Positions 38,891-60,651 of a stretch of DNA of 64,000 nucleotides are shown here, piece by piece; positions within the stretch are counted from its first letter, which is position 1, and every line of letters begins with the position of its first letter. The translations under genes were made by a program, and so were the position numbers. The notes beneath the pieces were generated by a model that was given only the letters and a program-made list of their open reading frames with translations, was not told the DNA's origin and made no database searches. The stretch covers positions 372,001 through 436,000 of the forward strand of contig NZ_AFEJ02000002.1 of the NCBI RefSeq assembly GCF_000238775.2, in the 5' to 3' direction. Source of the stretch: Acaryochloris sp. CCMEE 5410. Lineage in GTDB: Bacteria > Cyanobacteriota > Cyanobacteriia > Thermosynechococcales > Thermosynechococcaceae.

Positions 38891-40373
38891 GGGCGTAAGC
38901 ACAGAATCGGGGATGTATGGCTCAAAGAAAAACGGGTCAAGGACAATAGATCCTGTACCCGAATCAAAAACTTGTCATGAGCCTAACATCGCAATTGCCA
39001 ACCGTACTAGAGCATCACGAATTTCTAGAACAGGTCGAAGCACTCAAAGAATCACCCAGCCTGAGTCAGATGGTTTATATCGTTCTGCAAATGGGTTTGT
39101 ATTTGGCTCGATGGCTTCTGGAGGATGAACTCTCACGGCGAGCAAAAACAGTATTTGAATGGCCTAGGTGTAGCACCTGCGGAACCCGCTTGCACTCGAA
39201 GGGATGGGAATCTCGTCAGATGCAGACACTGGTGGGAAATATTTACTGAAAGCGACGGGTGGGTCGTTGTCCAAAAGGGTGTCCAGGTAGTCTATCAGCT
39301 CCTCTGGACCAATCCATTGGGATTACCTCTTACCAGCACAGCAGTAAAGAACTGGTGCGTCTAGGCTGCTTGTTAAGTCTATTTATGCCCTATGAACTGG
39401 CCAGTTGGATGCTGAGTCAGTGGAGTGGTTTATCCGTCAGTTCATCAAGCTTGTGGAATTGGGTGCAAGTCATGGGCAACAAAGCTTATCAGGAGCTAGA
39501 GGCTCAACTCAAAGCTCAAGCATCAGGTGAACAGGCTCCTAGTGAAGCGATTTCAGAGGTGTTGTCTGCTCTGCCTTTGGCCATTGCTGCTGACGGTGTG
39601 ATGGTGCCCTTTCGCCCCACTCCGAAAACCCCCAAGGGAAAAATCCAGTGGCGAGAAGTTAAAGTCGCTATCTTAGCCCGCCTGGGAACACGGCTCACCC
39701 GAGCTAAAAGAGTGTCCCCAACTACTGCGTCGAAGACTGGTAGCAGTATTGGGCGATATCGACCAGTTCATCCCCTTACTGCAACTCGAAGCCCGCAAAC
39801 AAGACTTTGAATCGGCCCCAAGCGTCATCTGGTTGAGTGATGGGGGGCGAGGCTTCTGGCGAGTCTACCGCACCTTGTTCTCTCACTGTGCTGTGGCAGT
39901 TCTCGATTTTTTCATGCAGCAGGCCATCTTGCACGAGCAACAAAAGTGATGTTTGGGGATGTTCGCTCTGCTCAAGCCCAAGCCTGGTTTCGGCGCTGGC
40001 GACACCAATTGCGACATGGGCAACACCTATTAGTATTGCGGTCCTTGACGATGTTGATTCACTCACAATTGTTTACGGGCAAATCTTTTACGACGTTGCT
40101 CCAGGTACAGGCTTATTTCCAGCGCCATCTGCGACACATCCAATATCGCCACTTTGAACAACTACAGATACCGCTGGGGTCAGGAATGGTCGAAAGTGCT
40201 TGTAAGTGGCTGATTCAACAGCGCTTTAAGGGGGTTGGTATGCGCTGGAGTGAGGATGGTTTCAATCATCTACTCATGCTGCGGCTTGCCTGGGTCAATC
40301 AACGGTTTGACTCCCTATTCCCAGGGGTAACCATTCCGAAGTCTAAGGCATCCCCGATCCATTAGCTACGCCC
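38891..40373 (+). mobile_element. ISKra4-like insertion sequence (element B), copy 1, 1483 bp
   Basis: Ends are GGGCGTAAGC... and ...GCTACGCCC. The inverted repeats share GGGCGTA and ATCGGGGATG with a few mismatches between. A 9-bp direct repeat flanks it. Nearly identical to the copy at 49281-50762 in opposite orientation; the differences I found are single-base length changes in homopolymer runs. Confidence 0.93.
38977..40365 (+). pseudogene. ISKra4-like transposase of element B, copy 1: nonsense codon and two frame changes
   Basis: The conceptual protein is about 460 residues: an N-terminal helical part, a zinc ribbon (CSTCGTRL...GRCPKGC), catalytic Asp in IAADGVMVP, second Asp in VIWLSDGG, DFFHAAGHL, and Glu in LGSGMVESACKW. 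Lesions: a TGA at 39247-39249 where Trp is expected, a +1 change near the A4 run at about 39704, and a -1 change at T-TTT-TTC near 39910. The last is a perfect slippery heptamer that would read on as HAAGHLARATK. No single frame encodes the enzyme. Confidence 0.82.
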
Positions 40374-49280: not shown

Positions 49281-50762
49281 GGGCGTAGCTAATGGATCGG
49301 GGATGCCTTAGACTTCGGAATGGTTACCCCTGGGAATAGGGAGTCAAACCGTTGATTGACCCAGGCAAGCCGCAGCATGAGTAGATGATTGAAACCATCC
49401 TCACTCCAGCGCATACCAACCCCCTTAAAGCGCTGTTGAATCAGCCACTTACAAGCACTTTCGACCATTCCTGACCCCAGCGGTATCTGTAGTTGTTCAA
49501 AGTGGCGATATTGGATGTGTCGCAGATGGCGCTGGAAATAAGCCTGTACCTGGAGCAACGTCGTAAAAGATTTGCCCGTAAACAATTGTGAGTGAATCAA
49601 CATCGTCAAGGACCGCAATACTAATAGGTGTTGCCCATGTCGCAATTGGTGTCGCCAGCGCCGAAACCAGGCTTGGGCTTGAGCAGAGCGAACATCCCCA
49701 AACATCACTTTTGTTGCTCGTGCAAGATGGCCTGCTGCATGAAAAAATCGAGAACTGCCACAGCACAGTGAGAGAACAAGGTGCGGTAGACTCGCCAGAA
49801 GCCTCGCCCCCATCACTCAACCAGATGACGCTTGGGGCCGATTCAAAGTCTTGTTTGCGGGCTTCGAGTTGCAGTAAGGGGATGAACTGGTCGATATCGC
49901 CCAATACTGCTACCAGTCTTCGACGCAGTAGTTGGGGGACACTCTTTTAGCTCGGGTGAGCCGTGTTCCCAGGCGGGCTAAGATAGCGACTTTAACTTCT
50001 CGCCACTGGATTTTTCCCTTGGGGGTTTTCGGAGTGGGGCGAAAGGGCACCATCACACCGTCAGCAGCAATGGCCAAAGGCAGAGCAGACAACACCTCTG
50101 AAATCGCTTCACTAGGAGCCTGTTCACCTGATGCTTGAGCTTTGAGTTGAGCCTCTAGCTCCTGATAAGCTTTGTTGCCCATGACTTGCACCCAATTCCA
50201 CAAGCTTGATGAACTGACGGATAAACCACTCCACTGACTCAGCATCCAACTGGCCAGTTCATAGGGCATAAATAGACTTAACAAGCAGCCTAGACGCACC
50301 AGTTCTTTACTGCTGTGCTGGTAAGAGGTAATCCCAATGGATTGGTCCAGAGGAGCTGATAGACTACCTGGACACCCTTTTGGACAACGACCCACCCGTC
50401 GCTTTCAGTAAATATTCCCACCAGTGTCTGCATCTGACGAGATTCCCATCCCTTCGAGTGCAAGCGGGTTCCGCAGGTGCTACACCTAGGCCATTCAAAT
50501 ACTGTTTTTGCTCGCCGTGAGAGTTCATCCTCCAGAAGCCATCGAGCCAAATACAAACCCATTTGCAGAACGATATAAACCATCTGACTCAGGCTGGGTG
50601 ATTCTTTGAGTGCTTCGACCTGTTCTAGAAATTCGTGATGCTCTAGTACGGTTGGCAATTGCGATGTTAGGCTCATGACAAGTTTTTGATTCGGGTACAG
50701 GATCTATTGTCCTTGACCCGTTTTTCTTTGAGCCATACATCCCCGATTCTGTGCTTACGCCC
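49281..50762 (-). mobile_element. ISKra4-like insertion sequence (element B), copy 2, 1482 bp
   Basis: Same ends as copy 1 (GGGCGTAGC... and ...GCTTACGCCC on the plus strand), opposite orientation, with its own 9-bp duplication. It differs from copy 1 by one A fewer in GGGAAATATTT, one C more in the run near 49935 and one G fewer in the G6 run near 49808. It sits in non-coding DNA at the left border of the polysaccharide island. Confidence 0.93.
49289..50676 (-). pseudogene. ISKra4-like transposase of element B, copy 2: multiple frame changes
   Basis: It shares with copy 1 the TGA, the A4 run and the T-TTT-TTC heptamer, and adds three homopolymer indels that break it further. Pieces run MSLTSQLPTV... 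from 50676, MGRCPKGC from 50395, MGDIDQFIP from 49904, and a final frame ending SKASPIH at 49289. No intact enzyme is encoded. Confidence 0.82.
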
Positions 50763-50771
50763 GCTCCAACA
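50763..50771. repeat. 9-bp target duplication, right copy
   Basis: GCTCCAACA, identical to 49272-49280. Confidence 0.92.
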
Positions 50772-51410
50772 CTTATGTCATACCCTGAAAATATCCAGTT
50801 TTAGAAGCATTATGAACCAAAATCTAATATTAATAACACCTAATTGAATTTATTAACTAAACTATAAGTTGCTCAAGTGCAGAAAAACTCTTAGAAAAAC
50901 AGTTGCTGATACTAACAAGAAGTTGTAAACACTTTAAAAGTATATAGACGAACATTTATCAATTTAGTTCCATGATAATATCACGTCTCAATTAATTTTC
51001 AGTACAGACCACAATCTACCATCCAGATATTTTATGATTTCTCAAAATAAAATAAATTTTAGTTATTTCAATAATACATTTATCACACATCCTTTATAGC
51101 CCACTCTAGCACTGTCTTACAGATCATTATTCATGAGCGATTTATTGTCTATGGCAATACTCAAAATTATAATTCACTAACTTTATATGACTAAATATTA
51201 CTTTTTCTAGTCTATTTTCTACATTGACATAATATCCAAGAATTATTATCCTTTGTAGAGCTTATGCAAGTGAGGCCCTCCCATAGGTGGTTTAAAGCTT
51301 ACTTTCACCAAATATAGTAAATTTTCCTGCTCAGTAAGTTCAGATTGCCACACTACAAATTGCTTATCTCCTGATGATGAAATTCCCCTACTTCTCCCTC
51401 ACTCGTATCC
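50772..51410. other. AT-rich gene-free leader of the polysaccharide cluster
   Basis: About 640 bases, strongly AT-rich, with no supported gene. It probably contains the promoter and a long 5' leader of the cluster starting at 51411. One promoter-like pair is listed separately. Confidence 0.5.
51224..51252 (+). promoter_or_regulatory. Candidate sigma-70 promoter for the polysaccharide operon
   Basis: TTGACA (51224-51229) matches the -35 consensus exactly; TATCCT (51247-51252) after 17 bases matches four of six -10 positions. It lies about 160 bases before the first gene. AT-rich DNA gives such matches by chance, so this is weak. Confidence 0.35.
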
Positions 51411-52268
51411 ATGCAGCTAGAATCAAAATCGGCCAATCTGGGCCTAACCCTCAAAAAAGGTTCAGTTGATCAACCAATTATCGAAGTTTCACTTCTTGAG
51501 CGTCGAATCACATTCATGACAACGTCAAGAATAGTTGACGTGATAGATGATGCCTGTCTTCACCACAACAAAATTGTAGTGTCCAACTACAATGTCCATG
51601 GTTTCAACTTATCAATGCAGTTGCCTTGGTTATATCGCTTCCATCAAAAAGCAGATTATGTCCATTGTGACGGCATGGGAATATTAAAGACAGCAAATTT
51701 CCTGGGCTTAGATCTGCCTAGCAGCTACCACACATCCTATACATCTCTAATGCCAAAGGTTCTCGACCTTGCGAACCAAAAAGGCTACTCAGTATTTTTC
51801 CTTGGGGGCAAACCCCATATTTTGGAGACAGCACTTCATAATCTAAGGCTTAACTATTCCAATACCAACTTTTTTGGTCATCATGGATATTTCCTATCAG
51901 ATGACCCAGCTGAGAATGCCTTAAACCAGCAAGAAGTCCTAACTTCCATTAATGAAGTTAAGCCAAATATTTTGGTCATGGGTATGGGGATGCCTCTACA
52001 GGAACAATGGGTAGATAGGAACAAAGAGCACCTCAGTGTTAATGCAATTATGCTTGGAGGGGCAATTATCGACCGACTGGCCGGTGAAGTGCCTGACTGC
52101 CCTCAACTTCTTACAGAATTGGGACTTGAGTGGATTTTTCGACTAGTACGAGAGCCAAAACGTCTAATGGGTCGATATGTTATTGGAAATCCTACTTTTT
52201 TGATGAATATTGCCTTGGCGTCTGCCCTTGGCATTCAACCTTTAACCATTCATCAACATAATCAGTAG
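51411..52268 (+). CDS. WecG/TagA/CpsF-family glycosyltransferase
   Basis: 285 residues. Family hallmarks are VVSNYNVHGFNLS, ADYVHCDGMGI, SVFFLGGKPHIL, ILVMGMGMPLQEQWV and GAIIDRLAGEVPDCPQ, followed by LGLEWIFRLVREPKRL. These enzymes add a sugar such as ManNAcA, or a related residue, to a lipid-linked intermediate at the inner membrane. It is the first gene of the polysaccharide cluster. The start has no clear ribosome site; an ATG at 51516 is the main alternative. Confidence 0.88.
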   Translation: MQLESKSANLGLTLKKGSVDQPIIEVSLLERRITFMTTSRIVDVIDDACLHHNKIVVSNYNVHGFNLSMQLPWLYRFHQKADYVHCDGMGILKTANFLGLDLPSSYHTSYTSLMPKVLDLANQKGYSVFFLGGKPHILETALHNLRLNYSNTNFFGHHGYFLSDDPAENALNQQEVLTSINEVKPNILVMGMGMPLQEQWVDRNKEHLSVNAIMLGGAIIDRLAGEVPDCPQLLTELGLEWIFRLVREPKRLMGRYVIGNPTFLMNIALASALGIQPLTIHQHNQ

Positions 52269-52347
52269 ATTGATTCCTTGCTCACAATATTTATTCTATA
52301 TAAAAATACTGAATAGTTAAGTCTAGACCTTTAAACTCCTGAAATGC

Positions 52348-53301
52348 ATGAAGCCTAAGGTATCTGTCATAGTCCCAGCGTACAATATCTCCAAATATAT
52401 ACTTGACGCTTTAAACTCAATTAAAGAACAGACTTATCAAAATTATGAAGCCCTCATTATTGATGATGGCTCTTTAGATGAGACTCCCTCAATTGTCGAG
52501 GAATTTTGTAAGGCTAATCAACAATTTAAATTATTAAAGAAACCGAATGGTGGTTTATCCTCCGCTCGGAACTACGGTATTGATCATGCTAAAGGCCAAT
52601 ACATTGCCCTTTTAGATGGTGATGATATCTACAGCAAAGACAAATTGGCCAATCATGTAGCACATTTAGATAATGACCCATCAATTGGTGTTGTCTATAG
52701 TGCATCTCAAGCGATTCGTGATGATGGCAAAGCAACCTTTTTTGTCCTAAGTGGTAAGCCACTGTATAAAGACATCCTTACTTCTCTACTATGCAAGAAC
52801 TTCATTGGGCATGGTTCTAATGGGGTTTTCCGCCACTGCTTAATCAACGAAGTTGGTAACTTCGATGAATCCTTGCCTAGCTCAGAAGATTTAGATTTTT
52901 GGTTGAGAGTTGCTAGTACAAAACGTTGGAAATTTTATAGAGAGAGGAAGATTCTCTCTTACTATCGAGTTCGACCTTCAGGCCTTTCTTTCAATATTAG
53001 CCGAATGAGAAAGTGTAATGAAAGAGTGATAAGCATGGCTCTTGAGCGATCACCAAAGTTAGTAGCCCCAATTCTCCCTAAAGCTTACGCTTATATGTTC
53101 CGATATTTAGCGAGATTAAGTTTAACTTCTGGAAATATTCCGCAAGCACGGGAATACATCAATAAGTCCTTATCTCATGACCGTTCAATTTTTATCCAAG
53201 ACCCAAGATCTTTATTAACTCTAATTTCGGTATTAGTTTCACCTCTCACTACCCTTACATTAAGAGGGATATTAGGCTCAAACTCTGCAGCTAAGCCTTA
53301 A
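52348..53301 (+). CDS. Family 2 glycosyltransferase
   Basis: 317 residues. The GT-A fold opens KVSVIVPAYNISKYILDALNSI; LIIDDGSLDET and ALLDGDDIY provide the nucleotide and metal sites (DxD-like). NGGLSSARNYGIDHAKG and SSEDLDFWLRV are typical of GT2 polysaccharide enzymes. No membrane segment, so it probably acts at the cytoplasmic membrane face. The sugar donor is unknown. Confidence 0.88.
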   Translation: MKPKVSVIVPAYNISKYILDALNSIKEQTYQNYEALIIDDGSLDETPSIVEEFCKANQQFKLLKKPNGGLSSARNYGIDHAKGQYIALLDGDDIYSKDKLANHVAHLDNDPSIGVVYSASQAIRDDGKATFFVLSGKPLYKDILTSLLCKNFIGHGSNGVFRHCLINEVGNFDESLPSSEDLDFWLRVASTKRWKFYRERKILSYYRVRPSGLSFNISRMRKCNERVISMALERSPKLVAPILPKAYAYMFRYLARLSLTSGNIPQAREYINKSLSHDRSIFIQDPRSLLTLISVLVSPLTTLTLRGILGSNSAAKP

Positions 53302-53332
53302 CAATCAAGTTTTTTACATTGAGATAGATAAA

Positions 53333-54829
53333 GTGATTAAGGCCAAAGCACCAACATCAGCAGCGATAACAGAGCAAACTTTCTTTAAAACTGATCATCT
53401 CCAGAAAGATTTAAAGAAAAAGTCTGTACGTGGTGGAGCGATAACAATGGCCGCCCAGGCTATGAAGTTTATGCTGCAGATGTGCTCAACAATCGTTTTG
53501 GCCCGTCTGTTGACACCCGATGATTATGGTCTCATTGGCATGGTGACAGTCGTCATCAAATTTGTCGTCCTCTTCAAAGATTTAGGTTTGTCAACTGCAA
53601 CAATTCAAAGAGCTAATATCAATCACAAACAGGTCAGCACATTATTTTGGATAAATATTGCATTTGGAATATTTGTTGCTTTAGTTGTTGCAGGATTATC
53701 GCCGTTAATAGCTTGGTTTTATAAAGAACCCAGGCTAATTAGTGTTACTAGCGCTCTAGCATTTATTTTTATTTGCAGAGCCCTATCTGTCCAACATGAG
53801 GCATTATTAAAACGCCAAATGATGTTTAACATCTTGGCAAAAATTGATGTTCTTTCCATGCTATTTGCAGTCATTACCGCCATAGTTGCAGCAACCCAGG
53901 GGGCAGGTTATTGGTCCATCGTTTACATGCTATTAATGATGGCTACCATTAATACCATTGGTGTTTGGATAGCTTGCCCTTGGCGTCCTGGCTTACCTCA
54001 ACGTAACTCAAATGTTCGTTCAATGCTGGCTTTTGGGAGCAATCTAACAGGGTTTAAAATTGCTAACTATCTTTCCCTAAACTTAGATAATATTTTAATC
54101 GGGCGTTTATGGGGAACAGTTGCATTGGGGCTATATGCAAAAGCCTATCAACTCGTTCTGCTTCCCATGGACCAAATCAATGCACCTTTAACAACTATTG
54201 CTCTTCCAGCTCTCAGTCGAATCAACAGAGATCAAGAGAAATATCGAAACTATTACTACAAGGCTGTATTGTCCGTTACGTCAATAGGTATGCCTCTTGT
54301 AGGCTATATGTTCGCAACTGCAGACCAACTAATTCCTTTTGTCTTAGGTGATAAGTGGTCTGATGCTGTTCCAATCTTTCTATTTTTGGCTATACCGGCA
54401 TTTCTTGGGACACTAGAACCTGCAATGGCCTGGGCCTATCAATCTCTTGGAAGAGCTGACCGTCAATTTAGATCAGGACTAGTTATATCAGTATTGACAG
54501 CCATTGCATTTGTTATTGGAGTTCGTTGGGGGGCCATTGGAGTTGCTGCAGCGTTAGGAATTACTCGGCCTTTAATAATAATTCCTTCCTTAATCTATTG
54601 CTATAGAAATACACCTTTATCGCTTTCAGGTTTGATTCTTTCAATCTACAGGCCTGCTTTAGCTTCAATCAGTGCCGCTCTAATAATTTACTTATTCAAT
54701 AGAGTTTCAATCCTTACAGGGAACATATTTATTAATTTAGTTATCAGTTTAGTTGTCTACTTAATTTTTTATGCAGCAATATGGATAATTATTCCGAATG
54801 GGCGAAAAATAATTCGTGAGCTACTATAA
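53333..54829 (+). CDS. Wzx-type lipopolysaccharide/exopolysaccharide flippase (MOP family)
   Basis: 498 residues with about twelve hydrophobic segments. The opening RGGAITMAAQAMKFMLQMCSTIVLARLLTPDDYGL is typical of the WzxC/polysaccharide-transporter branch. It flips lipid-linked repeat units across the inner membrane. The GTG start at 53333 gives a 35-residue charged leader before the first helix. Confidence 0.87.
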   Translation: MIKAKAPTSAAITEQTFFKTDHLQKDLKKKSVRGGAITMAAQAMKFMLQMCSTIVLARLLTPDDYGLIGMVTVVIKFVVLFKDLGLSTATIQRANINHKQVSTLFWINIAFGIFVALVVAGLSPLIAWFYKEPRLISVTSALAFIFICRALSVQHEALLKRQMMFNILAKIDVLSMLFAVITAIVAATQGAGYWSIVYMLLMMATINTIGVWIACPWRPGLPQRNSNVRSMLAFGSNLTGFKIANYLSLNLDNILIGRLWGTVALGLYAKAYQLVLLPMDQINAPLTTIALPALSRINRDQEKYRNYYYKAVLSVTSIGMPLVGYMFATADQLIPFVLGDKWSDAVPIFLFLAIPAFLGTLEPAMAWAYQSLGRADRQFRSGLVISVLTAIAFVIGVRWGAIGVAAALGITRPLIIIPSLIYCYRNTPLSLSGLILSIYRPALASISAALIIYLFNRVSILTGNIFINLVISLVVYLIFYAAIWIIIPNGRKIIRELL

Positions 54830-54970
54830 ATCCACTAATATTACTCCATAAAATTCACTTTATTTTATCAAAATTTCACTTATAAATACTCTCAAAAGAT
54901 TTAGCTTCTATTATTTTGTTGGAATTAGTAAATCAGGAAAAACAGCAGGATATTTTTCAGGCTTTTACCA

Positions 54971-56293
54971 ATGAATCAGACAATTTACCCATTATTTAGA
55001 TTCATCCATCAGAATGCCAGAATCAGGCATGCGTCACATGCTGAGAAAATAGTTTTCTGGACTATTATCTTGACTCCTTTATGGTGGTTATTAGGTATAC
55101 AGCCATTACTCTATCCGGCCATTCTGATTTTTATTTTCATCAAATCTATTAACCTAGATACACTTATTCGAAATCCTCCTCCTCTATCCATATGGGCATG
55201 GCTAGCAATGTCATTGATCATGTTGTGGACTGCTTTAATAGGCATTAGTGACGCATCTTTAGGACTGAAAGAAACTTTAGCTGCAATAGTCACATTTGCT
55301 AAAGGTTACTTTCTTATTTTCATTAGTTTAATACTACCTTTCTGGAATCCTATTCGTACTGTAATAATCACCCGAGCGGTAGCTTGGATGGCGAGTGGTT
55401 ATCTCGTAGGTATACTCTTACTAATCATTAGCTTATTCTTAGGTTTTACAGAATCTTTTTCACCACCCTGGGCAAACTTCTTTCCTGGGAATCCTGCTAG
55501 CTTTGTTGTTAAAGCACCAACTTTTCAAGCATTCTTTGGCGTTGTTGTTCCTCGTACTACCTTATACTTTCCAGACCCTCCAATCCTCGGTATCTGTGGG
55601 CTTCTCTGCTTCATCATATGTCTAGGAGAATCTTGTCCTACATTAAGAAGGTGGGGACTGTTGGGCAGTTTTACAGCTTTAATTATTAGTCAGAGCCGAC
55701 TGGCATGGATTTGCTTACCTCTTTCTCTCTGCATATATTCAATTTTTCGTACTCAAAGAGCCCGTTTGGGATCGCTTTGGACTGGCGCATCAGCAGCTCT
55801 TCTTTGCACATCGCTTGGTGGGATAACCATTGCAGAATTATTAAATAAGCCATTGGAGATTTTTACGAGTGCACGTCCTGCTTCCTCTACCGATAGAGAA
55901 TTCGTAGTTCGTAAAACCTTAGAAGCCTGGCAAGAATCCCCTTTTCTAGGTTGGGGTGTTGCTCAAGGAACTGCTGATTGGCATACCTACAGTATTACAC
56001 TAGGCTCATTTTCCACCTATGCTGCCGTTCTCTATCTACATGGCGTTGTAGGTTTTGCTTTCTTTTTAATAGCTTTACTAAGTACATTATGGAATTTGTG
56101 GAAGCTTGCCATCCAAGATCATTCCGCAGCGCAAAAAGCTCTGGGAGCGGTAATTGCCTTAATTATTTTTATGGAGGCGATCCCATTATCTTGGATGGCA
56201 GTATATTTTTGGTTCTTTTTTGTTTGGGTAGGAAGTATTCTTATCGAACTAAATTCTCAAAATGATGAACTCATAAAAATATCTCATAGTTAG
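54971..56293 (+). CDS. O-antigen ligase/polymerase (Wzy/WaaL-like)
   Basis: 440 residues with ten to twelve hydrophobic segments and a periplasmic loop containing GWGVAQGTADWHTYS, the region that carries catalytic residues in this superfamily. It polymerises or ligates glycan repeat units. Its place between a Wzx-like flippase and a Wzc-like protein supports Wzy. Very AT-rich codons. Confidence 0.78.
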   Translation: MNQTIYPLFRFIHQNARIRHASHAEKIVFWTIILTPLWWLLGIQPLLYPAILIFIFIKSINLDTLIRNPPPLSIWAWLAMSLIMLWTALIGISDASLGLKETLAAIVTFAKGYFLIFISLILPFWNPIRTVIITRAVAWMASGYLVGILLLIISLFLGFTESFSPPWANFFPGNPASFVVKAPTFQAFFGVVVPRTTLYFPDPPILGICGLLCFIICLGESCPTLRRWGLLGSFTALIISQSRLAWICLPLSLCIYSIFRTQRARLGSLWTGASAALLCTSLGGITIAELLNKPLEIFTSARPASSTDREFVVRKTLEAWQESPFLGWGVAQGTADWHTYSITLGSFSTYAAVLYLHGVVGFAFFLIALLSTLWNLWKLAIQDHSAAQKALGAVIALIIFMEAIPLSWMAVYFWFFFVWVGSILIELNSQNDELIKISHS

Positions 56294-56322
56294 CTTGTCC
56301 ATCTAATTTCCTCCTTACTTCC

Positions 56323-57156
56323 ATGCCTTATCTTCCTAAAACGTCTCTAAGAATAAAGCGCTTCAAATCCGTAGTTGAAGACAAGATGCTCAATCAACAC
56401 CTAATACAAGGGCATCAGAACTACCAGAAATTCGTTGTTCTTGCTAGACCGAGAACAGGTTCTAATCTCTTGGTCAGTTTATTACAATCTCATCCAAATT
56501 TAAGGCTATTTTATGAGTTATTCAATGAATCTCTTAGCAGCAAAACATTCTGGGATTTCATCAACTATGATATTGATAATGTATATCAGTATAAAGAAGA
56601 AGAGCCTGTCAGTTTTTTGCAGAAATTAGTGTATAGAGAGATGCCTAAATCTGTTTCAGGCGTAGGTTTTAAGCTATTTTATAATCATGCAAGGTCAAGC
56701 CATGAAAATCAGGTCTGGGACTATTTGAAAGAATCCAAAGATCTGAATGTAATTCATTTAAAGCGCAAGAACCTATTAAAAACTCACCTATCTGAGCAAG
56801 TTGCATTAAAGACACAGATATGGGTAGGGAAGAAAAATCCAAGCGAGATTTACCCAATTGAATTGGATTACAATAATACTTTAGAATTCTTTAATCATAT
56901 GAAAGAGCAAGAAGAGGAACACCATCAGTTTTTCTCAAATCACAATATTTTTGAAGTAAACTATGAAGATCTAGTTAAGGATATTGAATTCTATTCAAGA
57001 AAGTTACAGGCATTCTTAAAGATACCCTATAAGTCGTTATATGTCTCGACACCAAAGCAATCCAGTATACCTTTATCTCAAGCAATTTCAAATTTTCGTG
57101 AACTCAAGGAGAGATTCAATGGCAGTCCTTGGTTTGAATTATTTCAAGTAAGTTAG
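56323..57156 (+). CDS. Sulfotransferase-family protein
   Basis: 277 residues. FVVLARPRTGSNLLVSLLQSHP is a PAPS 5'-phosphosulfate-binding loop, and LNVIHLKRKNLLKTHLSEQ resembles the 3'-phosphate-binding strand and helix. It would transfer sulfate from PAPS to a hydroxyl, probably on the glycan of this cluster (inference from position). The ATG at 56323 may be followed by a better start near 56386. Confidence 0.78.
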   Translation: MPYLPKTSLRIKRFKSVVEDKMLNQHLIQGHQNYQKFVVLARPRTGSNLLVSLLQSHPNLRLFYELFNESLSSKTFWDFINYDIDNVYQYKEEEPVSFLQKLVYREMPKSVSGVGFKLFYNHARSSHENQVWDYLKESKDLNVIHLKRKNLLKTHLSEQVALKTQIWVGKKNPSEIYPIELDYNNTLEFFNHMKEQEEEHHQFFSNHNIFEVNYEDLVKDIEFYSRKLQAFLKIPYKSLYVSTPKQSSIPLSQAISNFRELKERFNGSPWFELFQVS

Positions 57157-57266
57157 TCATAATCAATCAAAATATAGTATTCTCATTTTTAGAACAAAAA
57201 TATATTTTCAAATTATAGAATTAATAATATTTACTTATAAGAAATCAGTGTAATGGAGTTTTAAGC

Positions 57267-59366
57267 GTGGATTTTTGGGTCACTATTTTTAGACACAAGA
57301 AATATTTATTATCTTGGAATATATTTGTTGCCATCATAGTACTTTATGCTTGGAGCACATCAGAAAAGACTTGGACTTCTACCATCAAGTTTGTTCTCCC
57401 CCAAGCGTCTAGCCAACTGGAAGCAAGCTTAGGAAATCTTGGATCATTAAAAGATAATGGGACTACATTTTCAACCCAGCTGAATCCGATCAAGACCCAA
57501 GAGACAATATTAAGAAGTGATGTTTTGGTAGCTCAAGCCTTACGTCTTGATCCTGAATCTACTACCTTTACTGATACAGAGCAGTACAAAAAAGTATACG
57601 AAATCAACGCAGTCGAACTATCAAATGTTTTCTCTCTTGATGTAAGTGCGAAAGATCCAGACATTTCTCTTAAAAGAGCTCAAATTCTGACTAAAGTCTA
57701 TCAACAAAGATTGCATGAGCTTAGAAAAACAGACGTTTCAAGTCGAAAGGAGTTCTACCAATCTGACTTAGAACGGGCTCGGCAGGAAGTCAGTCGGGCC
57801 CAATATGCCATAGCCCAATTCAAAAAATCTTCTGGTCTTGTAAGCGATGAAGCACAAATTGACAAGGCTGTAACCCTTTTATCCTCCTTGAAGGAAGCCC
57901 AAGCAAAAGCACTTGCTGAAGCTCGAGCTGAATCTGATCAAGCAAAAGCACTATCATCCCGGCTTGGAATTACTTCGAAACAAGCAGTACGTGCGCTTCA
58001 ATTGGACAAAAATGAAGATTATTTATTAGTCCGCCAAAAACTCACTGAACTTGAGTCAACTCTTAAGGAACAGCGAGCCAAATTAACTGAAAATCACCCT
58101 GCCGTTCAAGAAACTCTAAATACTCGCATAGGTCTACAACGCCAGCTTAAACAGTATATTAGCCAGGCAAGGACAAGCAAACAAAGTGGTCTCTTATCCA
58201 GTGGTATAGAAGGTCAGACAACGTTTATTGAACAGCTTGTATTATCAGAAAGTCGCGTACAGGCGAAATTAAAAGAAGCTCAACAATATCAAACTGAAAT
58301 TAATTCTCTGAACTCTCAATTGAGCACCCTTCCAGCAAATCAAGCTCAACTGCAAGATTTACAAAGGAAATATGATGTTGCCCAGGGTGTCTACAACGGC
58401 TTAATTGCTCAAATGGAAAAAAGCAATATCGATGCTTTCCAAACTTACCCTAATGTTCAACTATTAAGTCCACCTGCACTAAACCCTATTCCTTCTTCTA
58501 AGCTCCTCTTAATCGCTGTCAATGCTTTCTTTGCTGCAGGATTGGGCAGTCTAGCATTGTTATTATTATTGGAGTCGCGTAATCCTCTACTCCGCCCCAA
58601 AGATCTAGCGAATGTGGAATTCCCTCTTATGGTCAGAATTCCTCATATGAAACGTCAGCTAGATGATGTTGACGTCACAACGGTTTTAGGAAGCGATGGT
58701 GAACCAGCTTTTCTACAGTTGGCGGCCGGAATCCAGTCTCAGCTCCCCGAAACCCAATCTATAGATAGTCGTTGTCTTATGGTTACTAGTGCCGTAGCAG
58801 GTGAAGGTAAAACCACTGTAACAACACACCTCGCATGGGCTCTTGGAGAATTAGGGCTTAAAGTACTAATCATCAAAAATGGAATTAAGAATCTTCCTAA
58901 GAAAAAATTATTATGTTTAGAGCAGAGCAGTAATCATTTAGAAGAAGATACTGATATTTACGAAGAGAATCTATTTAATTCTGAACTAAAGCCCCCTATC
59001 CCTAAACCACAGCGAGTGATTTATACACAGTTTATTAATCGAAATAGTTTTGAAGATCGCCTTCATAAAATCATTGACTCTAATGACTATGATTTTGTTC
59101 TGGTGGATGGCCCACCAATAACGAAAGGCAGCGTTGCAACATTAATGGCAAGTATTATTTCTAATGTTTTGTTAGTAGTTAAGCCTGGTAAAAGTGAGCG
59201 CTTTCCTGTCCAAGATGCCGTAGATATCCTCTTACAAAGCCAAGTAAGATTGGCAGGTCTCGTTGTCAATGATACAGAGTCATCAAATTTCTCTCCCAGA
59301 AATTCATGGAAAGCAAAACACAATTCAGCTGATATTGTGGATCCTAGTCCTGCAGTTCCCATCTAG
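57267..59366 (+). CDS. Wzc-like polysaccharide co-polymerase with degenerate BY-kinase domain
   Basis: 699 residues. GGAG eight bases before the GTG supports the start. Wzz-type chain-length domain: helix near 13-30, long coiled-coil periplasmic part (about 130-375), second helix near 410-435. The cytoplasmic domain has Walker A SAVAGEGKTT and Walker B VLVDGPP. The Walker A' motif, normally with Asp residues (DxDxR), reads VLIIKNGIKN, and the C-terminus lacks the usual tyrosine cluster. It may still control chain length but is doubtful as a tyrosine kinase. Confidence 0.82.
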   Translation: MDFWVTIFRHKKYLLSWNIFVAIIVLYAWSTSEKTWTSTIKFVLPQASSQLEASLGNLGSLKDNGTTFSTQLNPIKTQETILRSDVLVAQALRLDPESTTFTDTEQYKKVYEINAVELSNVFSLDVSAKDPDISLKRAQILTKVYQQRLHELRKTDVSSRKEFYQSDLERARQEVSRAQYAIAQFKKSSGLVSDEAQIDKAVTLLSSLKEAQAKALAEARAESDQAKALSSRLGITSKQAVRALQLDKNEDYLLVRQKLTELESTLKEQRAKLTENHPAVQETLNTRIGLQRQLKQYISQARTSKQSGLLSSGIEGQTTFIEQLVLSESRVQAKLKEAQQYQTEINSLNSQLSTLPANQAQLQDLQRKYDVAQGVYNGLIAQMEKSNIDAFQTYPNVQLLSPPALNPIPSSKLLLIAVNAFFAAGLGSLALLLLLESRNPLLRPKDLANVEFPLMVRIPHMKRQLDDVDVTTVLGSDGEPAFLQLAAGIQSQLPETQSIDSRCLMVTSAVAGEGKTTVTTHLAWALGELGLKVLIIKNGIKNLPKKKLLCLEQSSNHLEEDTDIYEENLFNSELKPPIPKPQRVIYTQFINRNSFEDRLHKIIDSNDYDFVLVDGPPITKGSVATLMASIISNVLLVVKPGKSERFPVQDAVDILLQSQVRLAGLVVNDTESSNFSPRNSWKAKHNSADIVDPSPAVPI

Positions 59367-59591
59367 GATCTTTTTCGCACACTGAGTAAAAGTATTGAAT
59401 TAGGAAACATTGAGTTAACAAAAGAGTGGCGGTACATAAAATTGATTCATGCGCTCAATCAGTTTCCAAAAGCTCCGATTTATACCAGAGATGGGAAAGA
59501 CAGCTAACCAAGGCTTAAGCCGTTGATAGAAAATATAGGGTTCAACAATTATACCAAATCCGACTCATTAACCCCCGAAATATCTTATCTG

Positions 59592-60188
59592 TCAAGCTGG
59601 CCACCAATGGTAGTGAGTGAGAGCTTGAATGTCTGATTGCATTGTCATTAAAGTTCGACAGCGCTGCTCGAGCACATCTTCCAACTCATCCAGGGTCTCA
59701 AAGCATCGATTGGCCAGTGGTTCATCCGCTAGCCGCCACAACCGTTCAGCGGGCTGTAGCTCTGGAGAATAGGGGGGTAAAACCTTCAGATGAATGCCTT
59801 TAGGTACCACCAGATTTTTACAGGTATGCCATCCGGCTCCATCGAGAACGAGAAGAATCTGTTTGTGCTTTCCCGCTCCAACTTGCTGAGCAAAGCTTTG
59901 TAGGGCTTGATTAAACCATTCTCCATTGACCCGAGGCAGAATGAACCATTCGGTATTGCCAGTTGCGGGATGAACGAATCCATACAGATAGGTCCATTCA
60001 TAGCGATGGTCCACCTCAGCAATTGGACGCTGACCCACAGGCGCCCAAATCTTTCGAATAATGGGTTTAAGGCCTAAACGATGTTCATCCAAGGACCAAA
60101 CTTCGACCTGAGCATTAGGGTAGCGTCGCTCCAATTCTGCTTTGTACTTAGGCAGTTTTTTTAAAAGCGGCTTGGGCCTCTGGTTCAC
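59592..60188 (-). CDS. IS630 transposase, catalytic part (frame B)
   Basis: 198 residues. The DDE core is complete: VWSLDEHRLGL (first Asp), ILLVLDGAGWHTCKNL (second Asp), and LPPYSPELQPAERLW (Glu). It begins within an A7 run shared with frame A and lies in the +1 frame relative to it, so the enzyme would be made as a fusion if a frameshift occurs. Confidence 0.85.
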   Translation of the reverse strand: MNQRPKPLLKKLPKYKAELERRYPNAQVEVWSLDEHRLGLKPIIRKIWAPVGQRPIAEVDHRYEWTYLYGFVHPATGNTEWFILPRVNGEWFNQALQSFAQQVGAGKHKQILLVLDGAGWHTCKNLVVPKGIHLKVLPPYSPELQPAERLWRLADEPLANRCFETLDELEDVLEQRCRTLMTMQSDIQALTHYHWWPA

Positions 60189-60651
60189 CTTTACGGTGGT
60201 GAGGACGTGGGCATTGCAGGGACTGCTCCAATCGCTTGAGATAGTCCCAACCGCGTTGGGGCCAAACCTTATCGACTCCTGTCATCTGAGCGATGACCTG
60301 GGCTACTTTGGGGCCGTTCCATAGACCACCGTCGGCGGGTGGGGTTTGTAGACGAGTCAACAATTGTGCACATTGGTCTTGAGTCAGAAGACTGCGAGAT
60401 TGATGAGGTCGCTTATCTTTGCGTCGGTTGCGTAACCCATGGGCGCCATTGTGGTTATACTCCCTGACGATTTCTCGAGCGTAATCGTAGTTGAGACCGA
60501 CCACTTGGGCTGCTTGAGTTAGCGTTGTTTGCTCACTGACGAGCCACAGCAGATGCCAGCGGCGCGATTCTACTGGGTCTTGGCTGGCTCGATAATGAGA
60601 CTTCAGCTCGTCAGGCGAAAAATGGGGTTCGAGATATAGTTTTCTTGGCAT
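60148..60651 (-). CDS. IS630 transposase, DNA-binding part (frame A)
   Basis: 167 residues. It contains a helix-turn-helix (TLTQAAQVVGLNYDYAREIVREY) and a second winged region (NGPKVAQVIAQMTGVDKVWPQRGWDYLKRL) that bind the inverted repeats. It ends FKKTA just after the A7 run (60161-60167), overlapping frame B by 41 bases. Confidence 0.82.
   Translation of the reverse strand: MPRKLYLEPHFSPDELKSHYRASQDPVESRRWHLLWLVSEQTTLTQAAQVVGLNYDYAREIVREYNHNGAHGLRNRRKDKRPHQSRSLLTQDQCAQLLTRLQTPPADGGLWNGPKVAQVIAQMTGVDKVWPQRGWDYLKRLEQSLQCPRPHHRKGEPEAQAAFKKTA

Follow-up and report, generated by a model that had tools for sequence, protein, structure and literature searches.

Co-polymerases of class 2a (polysaccharide co-polymerases, PCP-2a) are pictured by the current model as depending on cycles of tyrosine phosphorylation, and in the active relatives of the protein described here the acids of the Walker A' motif of the bacterial tyrosine kinase (BY-kinase) domain are held to recognise tyrosine, to contact phosphates and to start phosphorylation. 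This protein, a Wzc-like PCP-2a with a fused BY-kinase-like domain from which these acids are missing, is encoded in a stretch of 64,000 nucleotides (hereafter the window) of the cyanobacterium Acaryochloris sp. CCMEE 5410. Wzc of Escherichia coli (7nhr, 3la6, 9r64), a PCP-2a with an active BY-kinase, resembles it in architecture and predicted fold (the structural matches being 12-19% identical), but possesses a Walker A' DxD and a tyrosine-rich tail, neither of which occurs in the window protein. Phosphorylation of the tail dissolves the Wzc octamer; the non-phosphorylating Walker A mutant K540M remains octameric (PMC8285477). For the window protein we consider it fairly probable, judging from its sequence, that the fused domain is a pseudokinase that likely binds nucleotide and supports polymerisation without tyrosine phosphorylation.

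EcpK of Myxococcus xanthus and HfsB of Caulobacter crescentus resemble the window protein in having a BY-kinase-like domain without catalytic residues or tyrosine tail and in belonging to a Wzx/Wzy-type pathway, in which EcpK has been proposed to be a scaffold (PMC12004946). They differ from it in being stand-alone proteins whose partner is a kinase-less PCP, and EcpK is described as lacking Walker A, A' and B, whereas the fused domain of the window keeps Walker A and B (PMC12004946). The same source cites, after the sequence survey of Cuthbertson et al., fused PCP-2 pseudokinase variants (S. meliloti SMc01795, M. japonicum Mlr8439, V. vulnificus VV1_2305 and another), and therefore the fused kind is already known. 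Like the window protein, these variants are described as combining co-polymerase and pseudokinase in one polypeptide. The closest solved kinase structure by Z-score, tied with others, is CapB1 of Staphylococcus aureus (4jlv), a separate protein that keeps DGD at Walker A', in contrast to the fused window domain with Lys and Gly. CapB1 was solved with ADP-Mg according to the PDB title, and no in vitro activity was found for it (PMC3795738). Among the cyanobacteria, Wzc of Synechocystis (Sll0923) and XssK of the synechan cluster are PCP-2a proteins like the window protein, again likened by description only. Sll0923 differs from the window protein in combining Walker A, A' and B with a Y-rich tail and in acting as an autokinase (PMC6562117); no Synechocystis record occurred among the best 40 of 137 matches of a plasmid search. 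The synechan cluster contains sulfotransferases and no OPX gene of its own, and in both respects resembles the cluster of the window (PMC8205485). A phylum-wide survey of cyanobacterial PCPs described Walker A and B as canonical “in many cases” (PMC4594306). None of the best-ranked literature titles concerned a cyanobacterial BY pseudokinase (supplementary files lay outside this search).

The gene and the parts of its product on which the comparison turns are as follows.

57267..59366, + strand: Wzc-like polysaccharide co-polymerase (PCP-2a) with putative fused BY-pseudokinase domain, 699 aa
57267..58586, + strand: co-polymerase part, residues 1-440 (AlphaFold model, structural match to Wzc residues 20-721)
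58800..58817, + strand: Walker A GEGKTT, residues 512-517, kept (alignments)
58863..58892, + strand: degenerate Walker A' VLIIKNGIKN, residues 533-542, with K537 and G539 where relatives have Asp
59100..59117, + strand: Walker B LVDGPP, residues 612-617, D614 kept (alignments)
59283..59363, + strand: C-terminal tail without tyrosine, residues 673-699 (sequence)

The open reading frame (ORF) is intact over its 699 codons and begins with a GTG start preceded by GGAG. An earlier note on this DNA had placed a Wzc-like protein at 58760-59366; the Wzc-like identity holds, while that interval proved to be only the C-terminal kinase-like part (from approximately residue 499) of the longer gene. In Pfam and NCBIfam searches the first half matched chain-length determinants and the second half P-loop BY-kinase/MinD-type domains. 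TIGR03007 (E 1.7e-21) and the tyrosine autokinase profile TIGR01007 (E 1.7e-17; 63.7 bits against a cut-off of 108.05) both remained below their curated cut-offs, as did Pfam GNVR (19.9 bits against 27.7). The AlphaFold model (mean predicted local distance difference test score, pLDDT, of 79; predicted template modelling score, pTM, of 0.46) gives the co-polymerase part an N-terminal helix (11-31), a periplasmic helical bundle and a second membrane helix (413-437). A hydropathy scan at 1.6 flagged 411-436 and, within the kinase core, 620-641, and missed the first helix. Residues 540-582, directly after Walker A', are not resolved in the model (pLDDT < 50). As a whole the model matched full-length Wzc (Foldseek E 3e-19; Z 22.7 over 366 residues at 5.1 Å, 7nhr), and the kinase part matched CapA1B1 with ADP-Mg (4jlv; Z 22.8 over 186 residues at 2.2 Å). 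Because of these profile matches and of the fold matches to Wzc and CapA1B1, the protein is, as modelled, a PCP-2a co-polymerase with a fused BY-kinase-like domain: two membrane helices and a periplasmic helical region are joined to a cytoplasmic P-loop domain (residues 1-680 of the model against Wzc), and the gene sits in a Wzx/Wzy-type polysaccharide cluster.

The earlier note had also read Walker A and Walker B as kept, Walker A' as devoid of acidic residues and the C-terminal tyrosine cluster as absent, and on all these points the sequence agrees. Alignments with CapA1B1 (4jlv) and Wzc, a check that it had proposed, place K537 and G539 on the two aspartates of DGD (CapA1B1) and DAD (Wzc); the last tyrosine is Y608, and the tail of 27 residues after residue 672 contains none. 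A chance or misaligned Walker A' motif was ruled out by the agreement of the two alignments to solved proteins and the family alignments, and the change is not due to chance, since all 37 intact members of the subfamily (see below) carry D at both positions. The domain, with its predicted BY-kinase fold, without catalytic residues and tail tyrosines and with only Walker A' lost, answers to the description of a BY pseudokinase. N668, which all 37 intact members share and the window protein keeps, falls on an Asn in both CapB1 and Wzc and may possibly be equivalent to the conserved pocket Asn of BceF, which lies close to ADP (PMC8394532). At the columns of the ring-interface motif EX2RX2R (named in PMC3795738), the window protein has A481 at E and Q484 at the first R, as placed by alignment only; these columns vary in the intact relatives too (E in 27/37, R in 19/37).

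Protein searches took in 58 related genomes, 29 from the family and 388 from the class, and since two candidates per genome were scored in the class and phylum searches, the subfamily member counts are lower bounds. The subfamily is clearly set apart from ordinary cyanobacterial PCP-2a proteins (weakest member E 6e-90, next match in the same search E 7e-37); at least 35 of the 388 class genomes hold a member at E <= 1e-50, and G007, of the same family as the window genome, carries one as well. Forty-one members were collected, including the window protein, and 40 of these have the kinase domain. Walker A' DxD is kept in 37 of the 40 and lost in three, i.e., the window protein (K,G), L011 of genome G014 (R,Q) and L078 of genome G223 (K,E). 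Five members found later (L170-L174) all have DxD, which brings the total to 42/45. L075, a fragment at a contig end, was excluded from the motif counts, and 13 larger loci duplicating smaller ones were excluded from the family alignment. In 22 further cyanobacterial PCP loci (L018-L039) the kinase domain was present in 18, with an acid (D or E) at each of the two Walker A' positions in 18/18. DxD is not universal, because many PCP-2a kinases of Bacteroidota have Gly for the first Asp: in a sample of 67 rows, biased by the scan patterns, Gly stands there in 30 (Bacteroidota by record title), with 3 to 15 Tyr in the last 40 residues, and the second Asp is D in 59/67. Loss of the first Asp alone was, for this frequency of Gly, discarded as a marker, and it is the joint loss of both Walker A' acids that, on these sequences, is the unusual feature. 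Bacteroidota kinases such as L096, L100, L103-L110 and others show a GADIRNP-like Walker A' together with a Tyr-rich tail.

A contig scan with the window protein as query confirmed no relative, and one with alignment A2 gave at least 80 loci, the first four of which (L086-L089) are subfamily members by identity (33-39%). Sixty-three of these 80 loci were tried and six dropped, five for length and one because of a stop or shift within it; 37 of the remaining 57 were joined with the window protein in alignment A3 for structure prediction. Plasmid matches from Alphaproteobacteria (H5, H7 and H9; Sulfitobacter, Alloyangia) cover the co-polymerase part only, to residue 411, and the Sulfitobacter match H5 adjoins a Wzy-like gene (H42).

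The window protein and L011 are sisters in a tree of the co-polymerase part alone (support 100/99) and again in a tree of the kinase part minus the motif (99/97), and in both trees the motif state changes twice. Their identity is 40% in the co-polymerase part and 42% in the kinase part. Because both share the loss as a strongly supported clade at approximately 40% identity, the loss of Walker A' most likely predates their split. The co-polymerase part rejects a single clade of the three degenerate members, and with it one common origin of their losses (p-AU, approximately unbiased test, 2.3e-8), and by its tree L078 probably lost the motif separately; the three rows had been chosen by motif before the trees were built, and the single-clade test was decided upon after the trees had been seen. 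The 37 intact members agree without exception at twelve columns of the kinase domain; of these, each degenerate member lacks D537 and D539 and no others. Since it was this very loss by which the degenerate members were selected, what counts is that the remaining ten columns are preserved throughout the three. The first Asp is replaced by Lys or Arg in every case. The three also have C503 and K532 in common (intact members: R503 in 32/37, R532 in 30/37). The window protein itself retains all 12 invariant columns of the co-polymerase part. The degenerate BY-kinase reading of the earlier note is thus well supported by comparison, with both Walker A' acids lost, the tyrosine tail absent and the loss shared by a distant sister, and the Walker A' change is old and probably recurrent rather than part of a wholesale decay.

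A number of observations weigh against the pseudokinase reading. The kinase part does not reject a single clade of the three degenerate members (p-AU 0.161) and is thus also compatible with one origin. The sister L011 has lost three of the 12 invariant co-polymerase columns (9 kept) and L078 one (11 kept). At a looser threshold the window protein, L011 and L078 keep 36, 34 and 39 of 52 kinase columns, which places them among the five lowest of the 40 members, and the end branch of L078 is 1.76 in the kinase tree vs. 0.66 in the co-polymerase tree. Such fast evolution of the kinase part would also fit relaxed constraint; with clearly more columns changed than in most relatives, the constraint is altered rather than absent. 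Missing tail tyrosines are a weak marker, because three of the 37 members with an intact motif have none either (the other 34 have 1 to 4), and their absence was discarded as a sole argument. The loop after Walker A', modelled with low confidence, contains an acidic stretch, E559-E567 (EEDTDIYEE). Finally, on the 9401-base contig of G014 that carries L011 (C240; locus L044) no other ORF matches the cluster genes of the window.

We infer from the replaced motif a loss of kinase activity. With P-loop and Walker B kept, nucleotide would probably still be bound, and because both are retained, nucleotide binding likely still matters in the window protein, unlike in EcpK. Since the Walker A' acids are replaced by Lys and Gly and the tail has no tyrosines, no phosphate should be transferred to the tail, and for the same reasons the protein should resemble the unphosphorylated state of Wzc. 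The pseudokinase domain would then serve as a scaffold on the cytoplasmic side that keeps the ring of co-polymerases assembled, and ring assembly would be controlled by binding of a nucleotide or a partner and not by phosphorylation and a phosphatase. The co-polymerase would cooperate with the Wzy polymerase encoded nearby and with an export channel whose gene lies elsewhere, probably on a sulfated polysaccharide.

Alternatively, the domain could still be an active kinase in which another acid, e.g., one of E559-E567 or D614 alone, serves. In the earlier note the catalytic base seemed lost; both Walker A' acids are indeed gone, but its loss is deduced from the sequence, and a substitute acid may exist, because D614 is kept and the acidic stretch lies in a loop without a confident model. 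The substrate would in that case be another protein, since the tail has no tyrosine. The first Asp position does tolerate change, as the 30 rows with Gly indicate, but the second, which is D in 59/67 rows and in all 37 intact members, is lost in the window protein as well. Moreover, the loop of L011 differs strongly from that of the window protein and, consequently, no conserved substitute acid is apparent in the two. We regard an active kinase as unlikely, and prefer the pseudokinase reading.

The co-polymerase gene is the last of six co-directional genes (51411-59366, + strand), which are preceded and followed by apparently mobile DNA.

51411..52268, + strand: WecG/TagA/CpsF-type glycosyltransferase (Pfam PF03808)
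52348..53301, + strand: family 2 glycosyltransferase (Pfam PF00535)
53333..54829, + strand: Wzx-type flippase (Pfam PF13440/PF01943)
54971..56293, + strand: Wzy-type polymerase (Pfam PF04932)
56323..57156, + strand: sulfotransferase (Pfam PF13469)
59592-60651, - strand: IS630-type transposase, encoded in two frames that overlap (DDE_3 and HTH parts), immediately downstream of the gene for the co-polymerase

The sulfotransferase suggests that the product of the cluster is probably sulfated. Close homologues of the Wzy of the window (47-53% identity) occur next to, or one ORF from, the PCP in eight of 15 neighbourhoods compared (L043, L045, L080-L085), all with an intact Walker A'; in the other seven Wzy matches were distant or none.

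These surroundings bear on a further possibility, i.e., that decay affects the kinase domain or the entire gene within a transferred cluster flanked by insertion sequences (IS). The GC content of 51-60 kb is low (0.35-0.43, compared with about 0.44-0.54 over most of the window), the transposase follows downstream, and ORFs upstream of the cluster recur elsewhere in the window (39259-40365 and 49289-50676, same sequence on opposite strands). The latter are apparently two copies of one insertion element, although Pfam named no family for the two pieces of them that were tested. No initiating sugar transferase was found by Pfam among the six cluster genes, and a search for a relic of one upstream (50601-51500) yielded nothing convincing among the matches listed. 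A DNA comparison of 51000-59600 with plasmids gave no match. The fast branches of the kinase tree would fit decay too. However, the frame is open over its full length, the loss is shared with L011 at about 40% identity, and 10/12 invariant kinase columns and 80/97 conserved co-polymerase columns are kept, so that we hold decay to be distinctly unlikely and the pseudokinase reading to be preferable.

The earlier note had suggested a search for another BY-kinase in the genome, and there are eight other BY-kinase-like PCP-2a proteins, seven of which pass the cut-off of the tyrosine autokinase profile TIGR01007 (L007 falls below it). All eight have the first Walker A' Asp, which leaves the window protein as the only one of the nine without it; L005, L006 and L007 have Asn for the second Asp, and L005 has a long C-terminal extension. 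The genome also has one OPX-family match and three matches to the low-molecular-weight (LMW) phosphatase family (one partial), none of them in the cluster of the window. That the disarmed domain acts in trans, as hetero-oligomer partner or regulator of an active BY-kinase in its own cell, would suit these paralogues and phosphatases and the pseudokinase/kinase pairing proposed for CapB1/CapB2 (PMC3795738), but is very unlikely, as the paralogues share only 23-26% identity with the window protein and lie outside its cluster, EcpK was argued to work without active kinases (PMC12004946), and the window protein has no tail tyrosine to phosphorylate.

The pseudokinase reading can be carried further. 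One may speculate that the Lys or Arg replacing the first Asp could contact the phosphates of the nucleotide. On this basis we propose, as a rather unlikely extension, that cyanobacterial PCP-2a proteins have, by a single targeted change, at least twice turned the kinase into a phosphorylation-independent nucleotide switch, in which the Walker A' acids are lost, the first becoming Lys or Arg, and the P-loop is kept; the Lys or Arg could neutralise the phosphates in place of Mg2+ and lock the ring in an assembled, polymerising state. If true, this would define a nucleotide-gated, kinase-free class of co-polymerase. The window protein may also represent a separate variant, should the fused proteins cited above turn out to be without Walker A. 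By sequence, the occurrence of BY pseudokinases is extended to the cyanobacteria. Intact and disarmed relatives that differ at one motif, and whose polymerases are approximately 50% identical, would allow a direct comparison of kinase-dependent and kinase-independent control in the production of a probably sulfated cyanobacterial polysaccharide.
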